64,000 bases of DNA from Halalkalicoccus jeotgali B3. GTDB taxonomy: Archaea > Halobacteriota > Halobacteria > Halobacteriales > Halalkalicoccaceae. The position numbers and the translations under genes are program-made. Shown in pieces: positions 10,162 through 19,697 of this stretch; the stretch's first letter is position 1, and each line of letters opens with the position of its first letter. Below the pieces are notes generated by a model. That model ran no database searches and was not told the DNA's origin. It saw nothing but the letters and a program-made list of their open reading frames with translations. The stretch covers positions 620,001-684,000 of the forward strand of contig NC_014297.1 in NCBI RefSeq assembly GCF_000196895.1, given 5' to 3'.

Positions 10162-10338
10162 GGGAGCGCTATCGTCTCTAGGGGGAAAAACCCCGTATCT
10201 CGTCCGCACTCGTTCGGATCGTTGTCACCTGCATCACCCGCCCATCCCGACCCCGAGTACCGCCGGTCGCTACGGACCGTTGCCCTCGTGGCAGAACGGA
10301 AGGCGTATTCGGGTCGTAGCGGTATGGAGGTCGTACTG

Positions 10339-11550
10339 ATGTCCGGAGATCGCATAGCGTCGGTCCGGCGGGAAGCGAGCGGGCTCTGGGCGGGTGGAAC
10401 GGGCAAACTGCTGATCGTGATCGCCTGCGGATGGGGGCTGTTGAACGGCACGCGGATGATCTATCCGGTGTTACTTCCGTATCTCAGTGCCGAGTTCGAT
10501 CTCACGCTCACCACCGCCGGCCTGCTGGTGACGCTCATCTGGCTCGGGTATGCGATCGGACAGGTGCCAAGCGGCGTCCTCGCCGACCGCCGCGGCGAGC
10601 GAGCGGTTCTGACTGCGGGCGTCGCGATCGTCGCGGTCAGTCTCGTCCTGGTCGTCTTCGCACCCTCCGCGTTCGCGTTGTTCGTCGCCACCGGATTCGT
10701 CGGGCTTGGACTGTCCCTCTATCCGGTCGCCCGGATCACCGTCCTCTCGGATATGTACCCCGACCGAATCGGACGGGCCCTCGGCGTGACGATGGCGATG
10801 GGCGATATCGGACAGACGGTCCTCCCGCCGGTGGCGGCCGCGATCGCGGCCGCGGTCGCGTGGCAGGCCGGTCTGGGGTTCATCGTTCCCCCCTTGCTGG
10901 CGGTCGTCCTCGCGCTGTGGGTGACGCTTCCTGCAGGGACCACTACCCCGGGAGATGAATCCGTTGACGACGGCCCCAACGGGATCGGTGAGGCCCTCGC
11001 GACGTTGCGCCATCCTACCCTCCTTACCATGGGGATTATCCTGTTTTTGTATATCGGCACGCTTCAGACGTTCTCGGCGTTCTATCCGATCTACCTGACC
11101 GACCAGAAGGGACTCTCATCGACGGCGGCGAGCGTGCTGTTCGGCCTGTTTTTCGCCATCGGCGTCGTCGCCAAGCCACTGGCCGGAACGGCCTACGACC
11201 GGATCGGGATCCGCCGATCGCTGCCGATCGTGCTCGCGGGCGCCGTCGTGGGGTTCGCAATCCTTCCTCTCGTCGAGCGACTGGTCTCGCTCGTCGCCGT
11301 CACCGTACTCATCAGTACAATGCTCGGATCGGGGGCGATCACGCAGTCGTATCTCTCGGATACGATCCCCGCGGAGATCCAGGGAACCGGTCTGGGGCTG
11401 ATCCGATCGAGCGCCGCGATGCTGGGGGCAACGGGGCCGGTGCTCTTTGGCGCCGTGGCCGACCGCGGGTACTTCAACGAGGCCTATTTCGTGCTGGCGG
11501 CCCTCGTCGGGGCGATCACCCTCCTCACGCTTCGCCTTCCCCGCGAGTGA
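10339..11550 (+). CDS. Major facilitator superfamily transporter
   Basis: 403 residues and about 12 membrane helices, with the MFS motif A variant GVLADRRGER in the loop after helix 2 and the repeated motif AYDRIGIRR between helices 8 and 9. The central loop is short and acidic. It resembles the bacterial nitrate/drug-type MFS group, but the substrate cannot be read from the sequence. GGAGG at 10326-10330 is a Shine-Dalgarno sequence 8 nt before ATG 10339, preferred over ATG 10324. Confidence 0.85.
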   Translation: MSGDRIASVRREASGLWAGGTGKLLIVIACGWGLLNGTRMIYPVLLPYLSAEFDLTLTTAGLLVTLIWLGYAIGQVPSGVLADRRGERAVLTAGVAIVAVSLVLVVFAPSAFALFVATGFVGLGLSLYPVARITVLSDMYPDRIGRALGVTMAMGDIGQTVLPPVAAAIAAAVAWQAGLGFIVPPLLAVVLALWVTLPAGTTTPGDESVDDGPNGIGEALATLRHPTLLTMGIILFLYIGTLQTFSAFYPIYLTDQKGLSSTAASVLFGLFFAIGVVAKPLAGTAYDRIGIRRSLPIVLAGAVVGFAILPLVERLVSLVAVTVLISTMLGSGAITQSYLSDTIPAEIQGTGLGLIRSSAAMLGATGPVLFGAVADRGYFNEAYFVLAALVGAITLLTLRLPRE

Positions 11551-11607: not shown

Positions 11608-12261
11608 TCAGACGTCGATTCGCTCGAATCGTCCCTCCCCGACCTGCCTGTGACTTTCGGCCAGTGCCGAGGACAGCACCGTCCGTTCGGCCTTCCGGAG
11701 GTGCTCGTGGAGCGTCGCACGGCTGATTCCCAGTTTCTCGGCGAGTTTCTCGTTCGTTATCCCCCGCGGCCAATCATAGTACCCGCGTGCGAGCGCTTGT
11801 GCGGCGACCTCGTGTTGTCGTTCGGTCAGGGGCGGCTCGACACCAGGAGTAAACTCCTCGAGTTTGCCGAGTGTAACTGTACCAAACGTCCCCAAATCCT
11901 CGATGATGTTTCTGAGGTCCTCGCGGCGAAATACGAGAACCGTGTACTCTCGTTGACGACCCGAGACGGTGTTCGAGCGCCGGAGCGTGCCGTGGTTCCG
12001 GTAGATCGCCGAGTACGCCCCACAGGACGGCTTCGTCACGAGCAGGTTCTCCTCGTCCAGTCGCGTGACGTGTTCGACGTGTTCGGCGGCTTCGAGTTCC
12101 GATTGGAAACCGTCCGTGTGCTCGCCCGACCGGAGGACGAACGTCACGACGCCGTTTTGGATCTCCTCGATCTCGATCGGGATCGGCGCGTCGACGCCCG
12201 CCGTGAGCCGTCGGAGAATGCAGTTTCTGTGCTGTGTGAAGTGAACCGTCGCAGTGAACAT
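11608..12261 (-). CDS. Bat-type (HTH_10) transcriptional regulator
   Basis: 217 residues. The C-terminal LTERQHEVAAQALARGYYDWPRGITNEKLAEKLGISRATLHEHLRKAER is the bacterio-opsin-activator helix-turn-helix (HTH_10), with the typical GYYD(W/V)PR turn. The N-terminal 150 residues are the family sensing region with no recognised cofactor motif. It is divergent from the hyuA operon across 154 nt, suggesting that it controls that catabolic module and senses its substrate. Control is inferred from position. Confidence 0.88.
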   Translation of the reverse strand: MFTATVHFTQHRNCILRRLTAGVDAPIPIEIEEIQNGVVTFVLRSGEHTDGFQSELEAAEHVEHVTRLDEENLLVTKPSCGAYSAIYRNHGTLRRSNTVSGRQREYTVLVFRREDLRNIIEDLGTFGTVTLGKLEEFTPGVEPPLTERQHEVAAQALARGYYDWPRGITNEKLAEKLGISRATLHEHLRKAERTVLSSALAESHRQVGEGRFERIDV

Positions 12262-12341
12262 CCCGGATCTCGTGTGTCAACGGAACCCACGGTGAAAAGC
12301 GTATCCGACCGATCCCCGACCAGTCGCTTGCCGGCTGCATC

Positions 12342-12366
12342 TATATAAAGAGCCAACAGCTGTTGG
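12342..12366 (+). promoter_or_regulatory. hyuA promoter with perfect 14-bp palindrome
   Basis: TATATAAA at 12342-12349 is a good archaeal TATA box for the hyuA operon (ATG 12416, leader about 45 nt). Immediately downstream, CCAACAGCTGTTGG at 12353-12366 is a perfect 14-bp palindrome lying between TATA and the expected start of transcription, where a bound repressor would block polymerase. The divergent regulator is the obvious candidate partner. Confidence 0.55.
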
Positions 12367-12415
12367 GGGAATTCTTACTCCCCGACGTGCCATCCGACAT
12401 AGTGTACGATATCAC

Positions 12416-14479
12416 ATGACACACAATCTCGGTGTCGACGTCGGTGGGACGTTCACGGACGTGATCATCTTCGACGAGACGACGCACGAACTCACGATAG
12501 ACAAGGTGCTCTCGACGCCCGCGAATCCCGCGGAGGGAGTGATACACGGCATCGAGGAGGCAACAGCCAAGGCTGACACCACGGTGGCGGATCTGAAGCT
12601 CCTGTTTCACGGTACGACCGTCGTAACGAACATGCTCTTAGAGGAGGCGGGCTCGCGGGTCGGGCTCGTTACGACGGCGGGCCACGAGGACGTTCTACAC
12701 CTAGCGCGGGCGTGGACGCCCGGCCCGCTGTACGGCTGGATGAGCATGGAGAAACCGGCCCCGCTCGCCGATCTGGTGGACACACGAGGAGTCGGCGGCC
12801 GGATCTCCTCGCCCGCAGGAGAAGAGATCGAGCCGCTCGACGAGACCGCAGTCAGGGAGGCGGTTCGGGAACTCGAGGCGGCCGGCGTCGAGTCGATAAC
12901 CGTCGCACTGTTGAACGCCTATCTGAATCCCGCACACGAACAGCGAGTACGGGAGATCGTCGCCGAGGAGGCCCCGGAGCTTCCCGTGTCGATCTCTTCG
13001 GAAATCGTCCCCGAATACGGCGAGTACGAGCGAACCCTCACGACGGTCATCAACGACTACGCGCGGCCGACAGTGATCAGCTATCTCGACGATCTCGACG
13101 AGTCGCTCTCGGCGGCCGGCTCGGAAGCGACGATGAACGTCGTGCGCTCGGACGGCGGGCTCATGAGCTCCGGGGCTGCAAAGGAGCGTCCCGTCGAACT
13201 CGCGCTCTCTGGGCCGAGCGGCGGCGTCGTCGGGGCGGCGACCATCGCCTCGGCGAAGGGCGTTCCCGACGTTCTGACCCTCGATATGGGTGGGACCTCG
13301 ACGGACGTCTCGCTCGTCGAGGACGGCACCGCCGAGACGACACGCCAGACGAAGGTCGGCTATCGGGAGTTCAAATCCCGGTCAGTCGACGTCAATACTG
13401 TGGGCGCCGGCGGCGGTTCCATTGCTCGCGTCCAGTTGAACGGATCGCTGCAGGTCGGCCCCGAGAGCGCCGGTGCCGACCCCGGACCGGCGTGTTACGG
13501 CCAGGGCGGCGAGGAACCGACCGTCACGGACGCGAACGTCGTCTTAGGGCGGATTCCACCCTCGGTTCAGCTCGGCGGTCGGATGGAGCTGGATAGAGAG
13601 GCCGCCCGCGATGCGGTCGCGACGATCGCCGACGAGCGAGGGAGTACCGTCGAGGAGGCCGCCCAAGCGATCCTCGATATCGTCAACGAGAACATGCACG
13701 GTGCGCTCCGGGTCGTCTCGGTCGAACGCGGCTACGACCCACGCGAGTTCGGGCTCGTCGCCTTCGGGGGCGCCGGCCCGATGCACGCCAACGCGCTGGC
13801 CGACGTGATGGACACGTATCCGCTACTTATCCCGCCGGGTCCAGGGGTTATGTCCGCCTTCGGGTTTCTCACCTCCGACATCCAAAACGAGTTCGCAGAG
13901 ACGTACCTCGAAACTGACGAGGACGTCGACGGGGCGGACGTCGCCGAGGAGTTCCGCGCGCTCGAAGCCGAGGCGACGTCGTGGCTTGCTTCCGAAGGCG
14001 TCGACGAAGCCGACCACGCCTTCGAGTACGCCGCCGACTGCCGGTACTTCCGCCAGGACATCCAGATGTCGATTCCGGTCTCCCCCGAGAACCTTCAGCG
14101 CGAGTCCGGGCTCGCGGAGATCAAGGACGACTTCGAAGCCCGTCACGACCGCCAGTTCGGCTTCTCGCTCGATGCGCCACTCGAAATCGCGAACCTACGC
14201 GTGATCGGCAAAGGCCGGCTGCAGGGGGTCACGATCGAGGACCAGCCACTCGGTGACGCCGATCCGAGCGATGCCGAACTCGCCATCGAGGAAGTGTACT
14301 TCGACGGTGAGCACTACGACACGGCGATCTACGACAGAACCGAACTCCGGCCGGGTAACGCTATCGACGGGCCAGCCATCGTCACGGACGCCGACTCGAC
14401 GGTCGTCGTTCAGCCCGACCACGACGCGACCATCGACCGCTATGGTAACATCGAGATCAACCGAGGTGAAAACAGATGA
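12416..14479 (+). CDS. hyuA: Hydantoinase/oxoprolinase A subunit (HyuA)
   Basis: 687 residues. GVDVGGTFTDVI at residues 6-17 is the ATP-binding phosphate loop of the hydantoinase/5-oxoprolinase/acetone-carboxylase superfamily. LFHGTTVVTNMLLE and the second-half LDMGGTSTDVSLV, VGAGGGSIA and AFGGAGPMHANALAD motifs complete the ASKHA-like fold. The family couples ATP hydrolysis to opening of cyclic imides or lactams, or to carboxylation of ketones, together with a B subunit. The hyuB start overlaps the hyuA stop by 4 nt. Downstream amidase-type and lyase-type genes favour ring opening over carboxylation, but the substrate is unproven. Confidence 0.92.
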   Translation: MTHNLGVDVGGTFTDVIIFDETTHELTIDKVLSTPANPAEGVIHGIEEATAKADTTVADLKLLFHGTTVVTNMLLEEAGSRVGLVTTAGHEDVLHLARAWTPGPLYGWMSMEKPAPLADLVDTRGVGGRISSPAGEEIEPLDETAVREAVRELEAAGVESITVALLNAYLNPAHEQRVREIVAEEAPELPVSISSEIVPEYGEYERTLTTVINDYARPTVISYLDDLDESLSAAGSEATMNVVRSDGGLMSSGAAKERPVELALSGPSGGVVGAATIASAKGVPDVLTLDMGGTSTDVSLVEDGTAETTRQTKVGYREFKSRSVDVNTVGAGGGSIARVQLNGSLQVGPESAGADPGPACYGQGGEEPTVTDANVVLGRIPPSVQLGGRMELDREAARDAVATIADERGSTVEEAAQAILDIVNENMHGALRVVSVERGYDPREFGLVAFGGAGPMHANALADVMDTYPLLIPPGPGVMSAFGFLTSDIQNEFAETYLETDEDVDGADVAEEFRALEAEATSWLASEGVDEADHAFEYAADCRYFRQDIQMSIPVSPENLQRESGLAEIKDDFEARHDRQFGFSLDAPLEIANLRVIGKGRLQGVTIEDQPLGDADPSDAELAIEEVYFDGEHYDTAIYDRTELRPGNAIDGPAIVTDADSTVVVQPDHDATIDRYGNIEINRGENR

Positions 14480-16326
14480 GTGAGACGCCCGACTTCGTCG
14501 GCGAACACGACGTCGACCGAACGACGCTCGATATCATCGAGAGCACGCTCTCGAACACCCGCTACGAGATGGATCGCGTGGTCGAAACGACGGCCATCAG
14601 TCCAGTCATCCGCGAACAGTCCGACCAGTTCCCGCTGATCGCCGACGCGAAGGGGCGAATGGTCATAGGCCAGTTCGGTTCGGCCATCGACACCATCCTC
14701 GCGAACTCGGCGTTCGAGCGCGAGGACCTCGCCGATGGCGACGTGATCGCGACCAACGATCCGTACATGTGTGCCGGTGCGGTCTCGCACACGCCGGACA
14801 TGCTGCTGTTGCGACCGATCTTCTACGAGGGCGATCTCGTGGGCTTTTCGAGCCAGTGGGGCAACCTGATGGACGTCGGCGGGAAGACGCCCGGCAGCAT
14901 GCCCGTTCAGGCGCGGACGATCTTCGAGGAGGGGGTGCGACTGCCGCCTGTAAAACTCTACAAGGGCGGCGAGATCGACGACGAACTGCTCGAAAGCTTC
15001 GCACACAACACCCGCCTGCCCGAACACGCCGAGGCCGACATCAAGGCGCTGGCGGCGGGGACGAAAGCTGCAGAAACCCGCATCCACGAGCTCTGTGATC
15101 GCTTCGGGAAGGAGACGTACGTCGAGGCCTGCGACGCCATCCTCGACCGCACCCGCGACGGAATGATAAACCTCATTCACGAGTTCGTCCCCGAGGGCGA
15201 GCGCTACACCTTCGAGGACTACGTCGACGACGACGGGATGGGCAACGGGCCCATCAAACTCCACCTCGAGATCTACCGGGAGGGCGAGACCGTCTACCTC
15301 GACTGGACGGGCACTGACGAGCAGGTCCCGGGGACGGTGAACTTCCTGTTGAACGAGAAGATGTTCAAGATGTTTACGGGAGTGTTCCTCATCATGGCCT
15401 TCGACCCGCTGCTCACCTTCAACGACGGCTACTACGACCTCTTCGAGGTGACACTGCCCGAAGGATCCGTGGTCCAGCCGGAGTTCCCGGCCGCACTGGG
15501 CAATCGCCTCCCGCTGATGGCCCGGCAGTTCGACGTCCTGCAGGCGACGTTCTCGAAGCTCATCGAGGGCTTCTCGGTCGCGGGCAGCTACGGCACCTCG
15601 CCGAACCTCGTCTACGCCGGGACGGACTCGGAGGGCAACGACTTCCAGATGCTCGAGATCCTCTACGGTGGGATCCCCGCTCGGCCGGGCGGCGACGGCC
15701 TCGATGGACACTCGTGGTGGCCAATGTTCCGAACAGTACCTGCCGAATACCAGGAGGCGTACTACCCCCTGAGCATCGACGAGTACAGCACCCGCACTGA
15801 CACCGGTGGTCCCGGCGAGTTCCGCGGCGGGCACGGCATCACGAAGGTCTACACCTTCGAGGAGCCGGGTGCGATCACCTTCCAGGACGATCGGGCCCAC
15901 ACCTACCCGTGGGGCGTCGACGGCGGTAGCCACGCCGAAACGAGCGAGAAGACACTGGTGCGGACCGACGGGACCGAAGAGGAGTTACCGTCAAAAGTCG
16001 AAAACGTCGCCGTCGCGGCGGGTGATAAACTCGTCTTCAGTACCGCCGGCGGCGGTGGGCTCGGCGATCCACTTGAACGCGATCCCACGGTCGTCGCACG
16101 CGAGGTCCGTCGGGGGCTCATCTCGGAATCCGCTGCCCGCACCGAGTACGGGGTCGTCCTCGACGAGGGGAGCGTCGACGACGTAGCCACCGAGGATCGA
16201 CGCGGAGAGCTCGACGGGACCCGCGACGAGCCACCGGCGTTCGATTACGGTCCACTACCGGACGACGAGACCCTCGAAGCACGCATCGCCGCCGAACGAC
16301 GCGAGTTCGCCGAGCGTCACGATTGA
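14476..16326 (+). CDS. hyuB: Hydantoinase/oxoprolinase B subunit (HyuB)
   Basis: 616 residues. Family features: the N-terminal STLSNTRYEMDRVVETTAISPVIREQSDQ helix, GDVIATNDPYMCAGAVSHTPDM with the conserved ND(P)Y/H metal-type ligands, FSSQWGNLMDVGGKTPGS, the C-terminal GGPGEFRGGHG and the STAGGGGLGDP motif. It is the metal-binding catalytic partner of HyuA and starts inside its final codons (ATGA overlap). Its length is slightly above the usual 520-600 residues because of an acidic tail. Substrate is not predictable. Confidence 0.92.
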   Translation: MSETPDFVGEHDVDRTTLDIIESTLSNTRYEMDRVVETTAISPVIREQSDQFPLIADAKGRMVIGQFGSAIDTILANSAFEREDLADGDVIATNDPYMCAGAVSHTPDMLLLRPIFYEGDLVGFSSQWGNLMDVGGKTPGSMPVQARTIFEEGVRLPPVKLYKGGEIDDELLESFAHNTRLPEHAEADIKALAAGTKAAETRIHELCDRFGKETYVEACDAILDRTRDGMINLIHEFVPEGERYTFEDYVDDDGMGNGPIKLHLEIYREGETVYLDWTGTDEQVPGTVNFLLNEKMFKMFTGVFLIMAFDPLLTFNDGYYDLFEVTLPEGSVVQPEFPAALGNRLPLMARQFDVLQATFSKLIEGFSVAGSYGTSPNLVYAGTDSEGNDFQMLEILYGGIPARPGGDGLDGHSWWPMFRTVPAEYQEAYYPLSIDEYSTRTDTGGPGEFRGGHGITKVYTFEEPGAITFQDDRAHTYPWGVDGGSHAETSEKTLVRTDGTEEELPSKVENVAVAAGDKLVFSTAGGGGLGDPLERDPTVVAREVRRGLISESAARTEYGVVLDEGSVDDVATEDRRGELDGTRDEPPAFDYGPLPDDETLEARIAAERREFAERHD

Positions 16327-16341
16327 CCGTCGACACCGATC

Positions 16342-16977
16342 ATGGACTGGCCACACGACATCGACACCGAATACGACGAGGCGGATTTCGGCGCGAGCGT
16401 CGGCCTCGGCGACCGGCCCGCGCTGCTCGTTATCGACCTGATCAACGCCTTCACCGATCCGACCACTCGCCTCGGCGCGGACGTAACCGACGTCCTCGAA
16501 CAGACGGAACGGTTGCTCACGACCTTTCGTGAACACGACCTGCCGCGTTATTTCACGACCGTCGCGTTCGAGGACTCCTATGGTGACGCCGGGCGGTTCA
16601 TCGAGAAGGTGCCCGCCCTGAAGGAGCTCCGTCTCGGCACCGAGGCGGTCGAAGTCGACGAGCGAATCGCACCCGTCGACGACGAACGAGTCATCCTGAA
16701 GAAGTACGCCAGTGCCTTCTTCGGAACCGATCTGGCAACGGAGCTGACGACCGACCGCGTGGACACGCTCGTCCTCGCCGGCGTCACGACGAGCGGCTGT
16801 GTCCGTGCGACCGCGGTCGATAGCCTGCAACACGGCTACCGGACGATCGTCCCCGCCGACGCGGTCGGCGACCGCGCCGACGGCCCACATCGGGCGAACC
16901 TCTTCGACATCGACGCGAAGTACGGTGACGTCGTTACGACCGATGCCGTACTCAACCACCTCTCACATGACGTATAA
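16342..16977 (+). CDS. Isochorismatase-like cysteine hydrolase (amidase type)
   Basis: 211 residues with the complete cysteine-hydrolase triad: Asp32 in LLVIDLINAFTD, Lys in VILKKYASAFFGT (about 120-121) and Cys153 in LAGVTTSGCVRATA, next to the typical cis-peptide. This subfamily contains N-carbamoylsarcosine amidase, maleamate and nicotinamide amidases. It is 15 nt downstream of hyuB and clearly part of the operon. After ATP-dependent ring opening by HyuAB, an N-carbamoyl or amide product would be hydrolysed here, releasing ammonia. The match to a ring-opening product is inference. Confidence 0.88.
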   Translation: MDWPHDIDTEYDEADFGASVGLGDRPALLVIDLINAFTDPTTRLGADVTDVLEQTERLLTTFREHDLPRYFTTVAFEDSYGDAGRFIEKVPALKELRLGTEAVEVDERIAPVDDERVILKKYASAFFGTDLATELTTDRVDTLVLAGVTTSGCVRATAVDSLQHGYRTIVPADAVGDRADGPHRANLFDIDAKYGDVVTTDAVLNHLSHDV

Positions 16978-17040
16978 CGACACCCACGACGACCGACTCG
17001 AACCGACAGCTACCTCCGTGTGTCCCTCGCGAGGCCAGCC

Positions 17041-17979
17041 ATGACCACCACCGGTGGAGCGCTCCGCGAGCGTCTCGCGAGTGACGAGATCCTCGCCTGT
17101 CCCGGCGTTCACGATCCGCTGACGGCCGCCGTCGCCGACCACGTCGGCTTCGACGCTATCTACATGACCGGCTACGGCACCTCCCTGTCGAAGACCGGCT
17201 ACCCCGATGCTGGCTTCATTACGATGCCCGAGATGATCGAGAACGCCGCGAACATCCAGGAACGGATCGACGTCCCGCTGATCGCCGACGCCGATAACGG
17301 CTACGGCAACGCGACGAACGTCGTTCGGACGGTCCGCGAGTACATCAAAGCCGGCGTCGGTGCTATCCACATCGAGGACCAGACGTTCCCGAAACGCTGC
17401 GGGCACACGAAAGGCCGGCAGGTCATCCCACGAGCGGAGGCGGTCGGCAAGATCGAAGCCGCGGCCGCCGTCCGCGACGAGCGCGACCCCGAGTTCGTGC
17501 TGATCGCCCGGACCGACGCCCGCGGAACCGGCGACGGCTCGCTAGAGGAGGCGATCGGCCGCGCGAACGACTTCCTTGATGCGGGCGCGGACGTCGCCTT
17601 TGTCGAGGGCCCCACCGACGAAGCGGAACTCGAACGCATCGGACAGGAGGTCGAGGGGCCGCTCGTCTACAACTTCGTCGGCGATCTGGGCTCCTCGCCG
17701 TACGTCGACCTGTCCGCGCTCGAACGATGGAGCTTCGATCTGGTGGTGTTTCCCGTCGCCTCGACGCTCTCGGCGATCGCACACGTCCACGAGGACCTCT
17801 CGACATTCGCCGACGATCCAGTCGCGGCCATGCGGGACATCGACGACGCGTTCAACGCTCAACCCGTCGGGAGCCTCCACGACTTCTCGGGCTTTCCCGA
17901 GGTCGTCGAGTGGGAGCGACTGTTCCTCTCCGACGCCGAGCAGGACAAGTACGACGGCTCGCTCGGCGACGACCTCTGA
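17041..17979 (+). CDS. Isocitrate lyase/PEP mutase superfamily lyase
   Basis: 312 residues, a TIM-barrel with the superfamily's essential motifs: IADADNGYGN (Mg-binding Asp pair, about 82-91), EDQTFPKRCGH with the catalytic Cys120, and ARTDARG. The KRCGH form fits lyases acting on 2-methylisocitrate, dimethylmalate or oxaloacetate rather than PEP mutases. It lies 63 nt after the cysteine hydrolase, presumably in the same transcript, and would cleave a C-C bond in a di- or tricarboxylate produced by the upstream steps. ATG 17041 is preferred over 17020. Confidence 0.85.
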   Translation: MTTTGGALRERLASDEILACPGVHDPLTAAVADHVGFDAIYMTGYGTSLSKTGYPDAGFITMPEMIENAANIQERIDVPLIADADNGYGNATNVVRTVREYIKAGVGAIHIEDQTFPKRCGHTKGRQVIPRAEAVGKIEAAAAVRDERDPEFVLIARTDARGTGDGSLEEAIGRANDFLDAGADVAFVEGPTDEAELERIGQEVEGPLVYNFVGDLGSSPYVDLSALERWSFDLVVFPVASTLSAIAHVHEDLSTFADDPVAAMRDIDDAFNAQPVGSLHDFSGFPEVVEWERLFLSDAEQDKYDGSLGDDL

Positions 17980-18009: not shown

Positions 18010-19386
18010 TCAGGCCCGGGCGATGCTCGGCGCTTCGCCGAGTCCGCCGAGCGCGAGCGCGGCGGTCGAGTCGGACTCCTCGGGTTGGAGTTCGACGGTC
18101 GTCCCGTCGTCCTCAGGGATATCGATCTCGCCAAGCGAGGCCGGCTCGTACCCTTCGGCCGCGATCTGCGTGTCGTAGCGACACGTCGTCGGTGAGAGGG
18201 TTTCGGCCTCGAGTTCGCCGCTCGCGTTCGACTCCCCGGTGATGTACGCGTCACCGCTCGAATACCACAGATCACACATCCCGCTGATCTCGGCGCCCTC
18301 GATCGGCTCGCCGGTCCCGGCGTCGAGGACGGTGTAGGTGATCGAATCGCCCTGCTGGAGGGTGATCGTCCTGTCCTCAGCGACGCCGATCGACAGCATC
18401 GGATCGACGTACTCCTCCTGTTCGGCACTGATCTCGTACATGTCTTCGAGGACGGTGAACTCGACCGTCCCGTCGGTGGCCTCGCGCGTCGTGGTCGCGC
18501 CGTCCGAGAGGCGCTCGATCGTTACCGGCCCCTCAGCCTCGACGGTCAGCGTGTACGTCTCGGGGTCATCGCTTTCGTTCCCCTCACTGCTGTTTCCGTC
18601 GCTTTCGTTCTCGTCGGGAGTGTTCTCGTCACTGGTGTTCCCATCCTCAGCAGTCCCTTCGTCGTCCTCGCTCTCATTGGCGGGTGGTTCCTCGGGCGAT
18701 GACTCATCACCGTTATCCGCCCCATCATCGGATCCACTCGACTCGTCTCCGGTCTCGTCGGTATTGTCGTCCGCTCCGTCGTCGGCGTTATCCGAGGACC
18801 CGTCCCCGGCGTCGTCAGCGTCGTCCGCGGAGCCGCTGTCGGTGTCTTCGGATCCTTCGGTTGCGTCTTCACTGTCCGACCCTTCACTGTCCGACGCGTC
18901 GGTTCCGCTCGAGTCGGACGCCGGGTCGTCGTTCGAGCCGGCGCTCGCGGACGACGCCGACGCCGATGCCGATGACGCCGAGTCGTCGCTCGACTGTGTC
19001 GCCACCGTCGAATCGTCGTTCGACGAGGTGGACTGATCCACCGACTCGCTCGACTCGGAGTCCGTGTCCCCGACGCTCGTCTCCGAGTCCGAATCCGCGT
19101 TCGGGTCCCCGTCGTCGCTTCCGGCGTCGTCCCCGCCGTCAGTTCCGCCGCTGTCGCTTTCCTCGGCGTTCGTCTCCTCTCCGGACGCGTTCGTGGCGTT
19201 CGTCCCGTCCGAGGAGTCGCCGCCGTCCTGTTCGTCATCGATGTCGCCACTGCCCGCGTTGGCGACGTCTGGGTCCTCGGCTGGCGAGCCGGTTCCCCAA
19301 CCGGCACACCCGGACAGAGCGACCGCGAAACAGAGCAGTAAAAGTACCACAAGTCGCCGTCGGGAAGGTCGTAGTTCTGGTGTCAT
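18010..19386 (-). CDS. Surface lipoprotein with acidic stalk and carboxypeptidase-like repeat domains
   Basis: 458 residues. The N-terminal SRRRLVVLLLLCFAVALSGC is a lipoprotein signal with an LSGC lipobox. Residues about 30-250 are low-complexity Ser/Asp/Glu/Gly/Asn, a highly acidic flexible stalk. The last 200 residues hold two Ig-like/PEGA-type beta domains (TLTVEAEGPVTIERLSDGA, and YTVLDAGTGEPIEGAEIS, the carboxypeptidase-regulatory start), with cysteines in SGMCDLW and TTCRYD that may form a disulfide. It is probably anchored on the outer face. The start is placed at the signal peptide; no enzyme motif is visible. Confidence 0.75.
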   Translation of the reverse strand: MTPELRPSRRRLVVLLLLCFAVALSGCAGWGTGSPAEDPDVANAGSGDIDDEQDGGDSSDGTNATNASGEETNAEESDSGGTDGGDDAGSDDGDPNADSDSETSVGDTDSESSESVDQSTSSNDDSTVATQSSDDSASSASASASSASAGSNDDPASDSSGTDASDSEGSDSEDATEGSEDTDSGSADDADDAGDGSSDNADDGADDNTDETGDESSGSDDGADNGDESSPEEPPANESEDDEGTAEDGNTSDENTPDENESDGNSSEGNESDDPETYTLTVEAEGPVTIERLSDGATTTREATDGTVEFTVLEDMYEISAEQEEYVDPMLSIGVAEDRTITLQQGDSITYTVLDAGTGEPIEGAEISGMCDLWYSSGDAYITGESNASGELEAETLSPTTCRYDTQIAAEGYEPASLGEIDIPEDDGTTVELQPEESDSTAALALGGLGEAPSIARA

Positions 19387-19493
19387 GTGCGTTGGTTCGT
19401 CGCGTCGGCTCCGCGGTGAACCCCGATCGTCGGTTCGCCACCGCGAGCGCGTCCGTCGACTATTTTCACCGTGTTTAACGGTTATCCGTATCA

Positions 19494-19511
19494 ATAATAC
19501 GGGTGTATTAT
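19494..19511. promoter_or_regulatory. Inverted repeat in lipoprotein promoter region
   Basis: ATAATAC-GGGT-GTATTAT is a perfect 7-bp inverted repeat about 110 nt upstream of the lipoprotein start on the minus strand. It contains TATAATA-like sequence on that strand, so it may be a combined promoter/operator. No ligand or factor is known. Confidence 0.35.
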
Positions 19512-19697
19512 AAATGCTACCATCAGGTCGTTCTCGGTCCGCGTTCCGGTGGACGCTCGTGGCTCCCGTATGCGCCCGGACCGGTACGGTCGCTCGGAGG
19601 TATTCGACCGGATTCGTCCCGTTCGTATCAAAAGACTTCAACCGCCGTCTCGAAATCGGCGTGCTACGACTGTCCGTCGGTCATCGAAATACGGCCA

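Follow-up and report, generated by a model that had tools for sequence, protein, structure and literature searches.

What does a compact operon of four enzyme genes with its own divergent regulator do in the haloarchaeon Halalkalicoccus jeotgali B3? We addressed this question in a 64,000-nucleotide stretch of its genome (contig NC_014297.1, positions 620,001 to 684,000; hereafter the window, in whose coordinates all features are given). On the forward strand, the operon encodes HyuA, an ATP-binding subunit of the ASKHA type (12416-14479), HyuB, a metal-site hydrolytic subunit (14476-16326), CysH, an isochorismatase-fold amidohydrolase (16342-16977), and LYA, a C-C lyase of the ICL/PEP-mutase superfamily (17020-17979). 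The divergent gene on the reverse strand (11608-12261) encodes a 217-residue HTH_10 regulator. HyuA and HyuB overlap by 4 nt, and the gaps that follow are 15 nt (HyuB-CysH) and 42 nt (CysH-LYA, counted to the GTG start at 17020; ATG at 17038 is the other candidate start, and both frames end at 17979). The four enzyme genes thus form a tight operon, in agreement with a preliminary description of the locus that had reported adjacent genes, the 4-nt overlap and close spacing. We consider the chances even that the operon is induced by its substrate and serves to break down a cyclic imide with a five-membered ring, of the maleimide or succinimide type and possibly alkyl- or hydroxy-substituted.

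All five genes matched their Pfam families above cut-off, the BAT domain of the regulator excepted. HyuA was assigned by Hydantoinase_A, Hydant_A_N and Hydant_A_C together with motifs and PDB relatives, HyuB by Hydantoinase_B and a PDB alignment, CysH by Isochorismatase, PDB alignments and a tree, and LYA by PEP_mutase and ICL, PDB alignments, motifs and a tree. Purifying selection acts on all four enzyme open reading frames (dN 0.02-0.06 and dS 0.29-0.56 against the orthologues of locus L005).

The preliminary description had made co-occurrence in other genomes decisive for its proposal. A scan of 84,980 species genomes with the CysH protein gave 26 haloarchaeal loci at 73-93% identity, and 54 bacterial loci at 46-57% were kept. 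HyuA-HyuB-CysH was intact or nearly so in almost all 26 haloarchaeal loci, the exceptions being one that retains only part of HyuB (L009) and one cut at a contig end (L026). Among 391 surveyed haloarchaeal genomes, some of them drafts, CysH (at least 74% identity) was found in 43 and LYA (at least 75%) in 27, the two adjoining in 21. Here and below, a simple script served to call neighbouring genes, many of which were judged from their N-terminal sequence alone; trees were built by a quick method with long branches included, and some of their rows represent one genome under two identifiers. The module is real and widespread, and the proposal thus withstood this test. Six genomes hold LYA without a full CysH: four orphans (L095-L098) and two decayed module remnants (L093, L094), in which LYA lies almost intact beside a CysH fragment and HyuAB is gone. 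In Natronorubrum bangense (L148) the module is located on an 828-kb plasmid, which is consistent with horizontal transfer.

We found that the enzyme accompanying HyuAB and CysH is exchanged between genomes. Of 22 CysH-positive, LYA-negative genomes, 20 carry a CoA-transferase III (PF02515) and a protein resembling isopropylmalate synthase and HMG-CoA lyase (PF00682), and two (L113, L131) have neither LYA nor this pair; LYA or the CoA-transferase variant accompanies CysH in 41 of the 43 genomes. The pair was absent from every LYA-type locus examined (14 in one set and 11 from the CysH protein scan). Their mutual exclusion has a nominal Fisher p of 3e-10, a value that takes three unfetched LYA-type loci as pair-negative and makes no correction for common descent. 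The LYA types fall within the CoA-transferase types in the HyuB tree, an arrangement that requires at least three label changes, at least one of which is forced by the starred branches alone. Bacterial loci add further combinations. The HyuA-HyuB-CysH trio occurs with a CoA-transferase and an HMG-CoA-lyase-like protein (L031, L033, L034, L037, L061, L062), with a CoA-transferase and a CitE/RipC-like protein (L078, L080, L081), or with a different ICL-type lyase (L059, L065); L052, on a short contig, has the CoA-transferase and CitE/RipC-like genes without HyuAB. As judged from these families, the last step is carried out by unrelated enzymes in different lineages.

This exchange points to the shape of the substrate. 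The substrates of ICL-type lyases are free acids with a 2-hydroxysuccinate (malate-type) skeleton, whereas relatives of CitE, isopropylmalate synthase and HMG-CoA lyase cleave 3-hydroxyacyl-CoA esters. Because (2-alkyl)malate and its CoA ester would satisfy both chemistries, they are the predicted cleaved compounds. With interchangeable lyases acting on a malate-type acid, the CysH product is most likely a dicarboxylate; CysH would therefore act on a half-amide, and HyuAB on an imide with a five-membered ring. We infer the following reactions and substrate class. HyuAB would open the imide ring at the expense of ATP, giving a half-amide from which CysH would strip the amide nitrogen as ammonia. 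The resulting dicarboxylate would be (2-alkyl)malate, either directly or after hydration by an aconitase- or isopropylmalate-isomerase-type enzyme encoded elsewhere. LYA would then cut it into a 2-oxo acid (pyruvate if the alkyl group is methyl) and acetate or propionate, and in sister lineages the CoA-transferase and an acyl-CoA lyase would make the equivalent cut on the CoA ester. The order put forward in the preliminary description, ring opening, ammonia removal and skeleton cleavage, is strengthened by the interchangeable lyases.

Further support for the imide and dicarboxylate reading comes from the LeuC-family hydratase gene that follows CysH in L061, from an aconitase-family gene within the L059 cluster, and from the neighbourhoods and groupings of LYA and CysH described below. 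The two-enzyme logic of the CoA-transferase variants resembles itaconate-type degradation, in which a CoA-transferase acts with the citramalyl-CoA lyase RipC/CitE, relatives of which are found in L052 and L078; the variant in the window differs from it by a predicted cleavage without CoA and an attached ammonia-releasing front end. The fungal nicotinate pathway is a precedent for opening an imide and then hydrolysing the amide: there, the cyclic imidase HxnM yields a hydroxy half-amide and the amide hydrolase HxnN releases ammonia and a hydroxy diacid (PMC9304392). However, HxnM and HxnN are unrelated enzymes, and their route involves a six-membered glutarimide, no ATP and no lyase.

CysH keeps an intact catalytic triad, D32 (16435-16437), K120 (16699-16701) and C153 (16798-16800), in alignments to PDB entries 26st, 4l07, 1nba and 3ot4, as the preliminary description had read it, and a conserved Arg equivalent to R202 of 1nba. 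It shares the isochorismatase fold, the triad and the segments TTSGCVRA and GPHxAxL with the maleamate amidohydrolases NicF/Ami (3ot4, 4l07). The tree shows CysH as the sister group of its counterparts from Bacillus clusters that resemble nicotinate degradation (SH-aLRT 92), among them that of Neobacillus niacini, a known nicotinate degrader (PMC4256190), and places 3ot4 and 4l07 elsewhere on long branches. Those Bacillus clusters contain a molybdopterin dehydrogenase, an FAD monooxygenase, an alpha/beta hydrolase and an Amdase-family protein. Unlike NicF/Ami in nicotinate and nicotine degradation, CysH would be fed by the predicted HyuAB step rather than by a dioxygenase/deformylase route, and the next enzyme would be a C-C lyase where those pathways have a maleate isomerase. 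A maleamate-type half-amide, one of the two examples given earlier, is the favoured CysH substrate.

The other example, N-carbamoylsarcosine, belongs to an N-methylhydantoin or creatinine-type route, in which HyuAB would open an N-substituted hydantoin, CysH would decarbamoylate N-carbamoylsarcosine or a similar ureido acid, and LYA would sit on a side branch. The names of the best PDB relatives speak for it: N-methylhydantoinase (7hk5) for HyuAB, and N-carbamoylsarcosine amidohydrolase (26st, 1nba) for CysH. But such a route would end in an amino acid. Neither LYA nor the CoA-transferase variant could process it, although nearly every CysH-positive genome has one or the other. CysH also lacks the 1nba-specific segments TAAGCVRHT and GVVQWN while having those of the maleamate amidases. 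Moreover, haloarchaeal clusters of ureide-like content exist apart from the module, and these carry an M20 hydrolase and a CysH paralogue. In a search confined to the listed neighbourhoods, which were read from ORF starts and partial Pfam annotation, we recognised no creatinine deaminase or sarcosine-utilising genes. This route fits poorly and appears quite unlikely, and it was set aside on the lyase/CoA-transferase pattern and the CysH signature segments.

The separate clusters (L105-L109) are large and combine CysH paralogues (46-50%) with HyuAB, an LLM-class oxidoreductase, an M20 hydrolase, SDRs and ABC transporters. They resemble the HVO_A0294-A0305 region of H. volcanii, and this cluster type looks like a hydantoin or ureide route.

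HyuA retains the ASKHA motifs DVGGTFTD at residue 8, DMGGTSTD at residue 290 and GADPGP at residue 353, phosphate-site aspartates included; in the caprolactamase subunit CapA the phosphate-site aspartates D11 and D295 are important (PMC8453981). The best PDB relative of both subunits is the N-methylhydantoinase 7hk5, joined for HyuA by caprolactamase (6yra). The best NCBIfam matches are CapA for HyuA (530 bits) and CapB for HyuB (214 bits), which could suggest a lactam route: HyuAB would open a pyrrolidone or oxoproline derivative, and CysH would attack, before or after, another carboxamide group of that molecule. However, these scores stay under the equivalog cut-offs of 1000, and lactam opening would leave an amine, for whose removal a transaminase or oxidase would be required; neither recurs in the loci listed. 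We therefore regard the lactam route as unlikely.

Acetone and acetophenone carboxylases belong to the HyuAB family as well, and hydrolases cannot be told from carboxylases by consensus residues alone (PMC5214803). HyuAB could thus act on another non-imide substrate or carboxylate a carbonyl compound, with CysH detoxifying or salvaging an amide and LYA cleaving the carboxylated product. Yet the genes are ordered hydA-hydB with no gamma subunit, which is the pattern of ATP-dependent hydantoinases and lactamases (PMC5214803), and HyuAB scores higher against the hidden Markov models of caprolactamase than against that of acetophenone carboxylase. This possibility seems very improbable to us.

HyuAB resembles N-methylhydantoinase and CapAB in its two-subunit order, its ATP motifs and three of four metal ligands (D50, H105 and D108 of HyuB). 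It differs from them in the fourth ligand and in its partners, which are an amidase and a malate-type lyase rather than an aminotransferase or carbamoylase. The Asp-His-Asp-His tetrad is incomplete: at the fourth position, where His is found elsewhere, the PDB alignment places Asn130 (codon 14863-14865, forward strand). Asn occupies this position in 59 of 59 HyuB rows from haloarchaeal modules, and L061, the closest relative among bacteria, has it too. His is found in 21 of 22 bacterial rows, in three HyuB paralogues of the host genome and in five HyuB of other haloarchaeal clusters. These alignments mark the HyuB clade as a subfamily. Mutagenesis of CapB showed that the four ligands are essential, and the same study describes His124, the counterpart of Asn130, as fully conserved throughout the family (PMC8453981). 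The N-methylhydantoinase 7hk5 has Gln there, so the family tolerates a variant residue. For the ATP-dependent lactamases as a family, a fixed change from His to Asn at such a site is a specific point to be explained.

LYA was aligned to PDB entries 3fa3, 3lye, 3eoo and 1zlp. Its DxD, EDQ and RTD motifs are intact, and so is the catalytic Cys already reported, Cys121 in KRCGH (17398-17400, counted from the ATG at 17038). It shares these motifs with 2,3-dimethylmalate lyase (DML) and 2-methylisocitrate lyase, and the YMTGxGT segment with fungal DML and oxaloacetate hydrolase (OAH). In contrast to these enzymes, it has an insertion in the GSSP loop, HyuAB-CysH partners and a haloarchaeal clade of its own, which joins DML and OAH at a support of only 81 on long branches. 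The Ser in the GSSP loop was considered as a marker of oxaloacetate hydrolase and dropped, since Ser and Thr vary among orthologues.

Where HyuAB is missing, the nearest relatives of LYA are found among TctA, MmgE/PrpD, LeuC and CoA-transferase genes, a content that indicates di- and tricarboxylate catabolism. In L100-L103, LYA relatives (50-65%) stand beside MmgE/PrpD and LeuC or CoA-transferase genes, with TctA in L100 and L101; the relative in L103 has lost the catalytic Cys (KRNGD). A diverged set (L099, 7566-13835) holds a luciferase-like monooxygenase, LYA (65%), HyuA and HyuB in one run, with CysH (42%) nearby; the monooxygenase is a possible oxidative front end.

Several observations weigh against an imide pathway. 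The best PDB matches of HyuAB and CysH bear the hydantoin-related names given above, and the Asn130 substitution could signal an altered activity. Four genomes retain an orphan LYA without HyuAB or CysH. No hydratase gene was found in the haloarchaeal operons, so that hydration is assumed or the imide is already hydroxylated. The isopropylmalate-synthase-like protein could be a synthase instead of a lyase, and we know of no established ATP-dependent imidase. Imide opening and hydration are the only steps of the proposed scheme to which no sequence feature of the window testifies directly. A bolder version, which we hold to be highly doubtful, is an undescribed ATP-dependent imidase pathway in haloarchaea and scattered bacteria that would mineralise alkylmaleimides via alkylmaleates and alkylmalates to pyruvate-type acids. 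Equally doubtful examples of its substrates would be methylethylmaleimide and hematinic-acid imides from the oxidation of chlorophyll, bilins and heme.

To describe the control of the operon, we turned to the regulator and the intergenic region. The basis of the term Bat-type used earlier for the regulator is its HTH_10 domain, which scores 75.5 bits; its BAT-like N-terminal domain (PF15915) scores 21.3 bits, below the cut-off of 25.8. A divergent orthologue (70-81% identity) is present in LYA-type loci, and a regulator relative, nearly always present in the 20 CoA-transferase-type loci, adjoins most of them (43-60% identity). The TATA box of the operon promoter, TATATAA (12342-12348, forward strand), is strongly conserved in position across 21 LYA-type loci. 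The perfect 14-bp palindrome noted earlier, CCAACAGCTGTTGG (12353-12366, alike on both strands), starts 4 bases past it, just ahead of a start site predicted near 12370 from the usual archaeal TATA-to-start spacing. It is followed by an initiation-region block, GGGAATTCTTACTCCCC (12367-12383, forward strand), with near-invariant AA and CTTAC columns in the 21 loci. This block and an ACGATA-CA motif right before the HyuA ATG (both within 12367-12415) are conserved across LYA-type loci.

The palindrome is the sole match in the window at up to two mismatches (expected 0.04). It is exact in 18 of 25 LYA-type loci and within two mismatches in 23, a set in which L006 and L145 are apparently one genome. 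Its distance to the HyuA start is about 63 nt in all LYA-type loci having it, and many CoA-transferase-type loci show degenerate forms at the equivalent position. Genome-wide, the exact palindrome is single-copy in the host. Eight of nine relatives likewise have one exact copy, placed at this operon, where the remaining relative shows a version with one mismatch. The other CCAACANNTGTTGG copy in the host genome (C1:1740991) was rejected as an operator because it lies inside an open coding frame. This conservation makes the palindrome look like a dedicated one-site operator. From its position between TATA box and start site, we infer that the HTH_10 protein binds it and, most simply, represses the operon until released by the substrate.

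The module combines known enzyme families in an apparently undescribed way. A public record annotates its genes by family name alone, and we found no description of the HyuAB-CysH-LYA set in open papers on imides, maleimides, ICL-family lyases or haloarchaeal hydantoinases, in line with the preliminary description. If the proposal holds, the final step of this catabolic module works like a plug-in: one ring-opening and amidase core is coupled, by replacement, either with a lyase that needs no CoA or with any of several unrelated lyases that do. The proposal would also give a function class to genes known by family only and add imides to the possible nutrients of haloarchaea. One regulator, one operator and one operon per genome would also make a compact inducible system that is easy to test.

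Among the neighbouring genes, an MFS gene (10222-11550) was rejected as a module member, as it is not kept adjacent even within the same genus; the distant LYA in L102 is flanked by MFS relatives. Right after the operon, on the opposite strand (18010-19641), lies a gene for an Asp/Ser-rich putative lipoprotein with a C-terminal CarboxypepD_reg domain.

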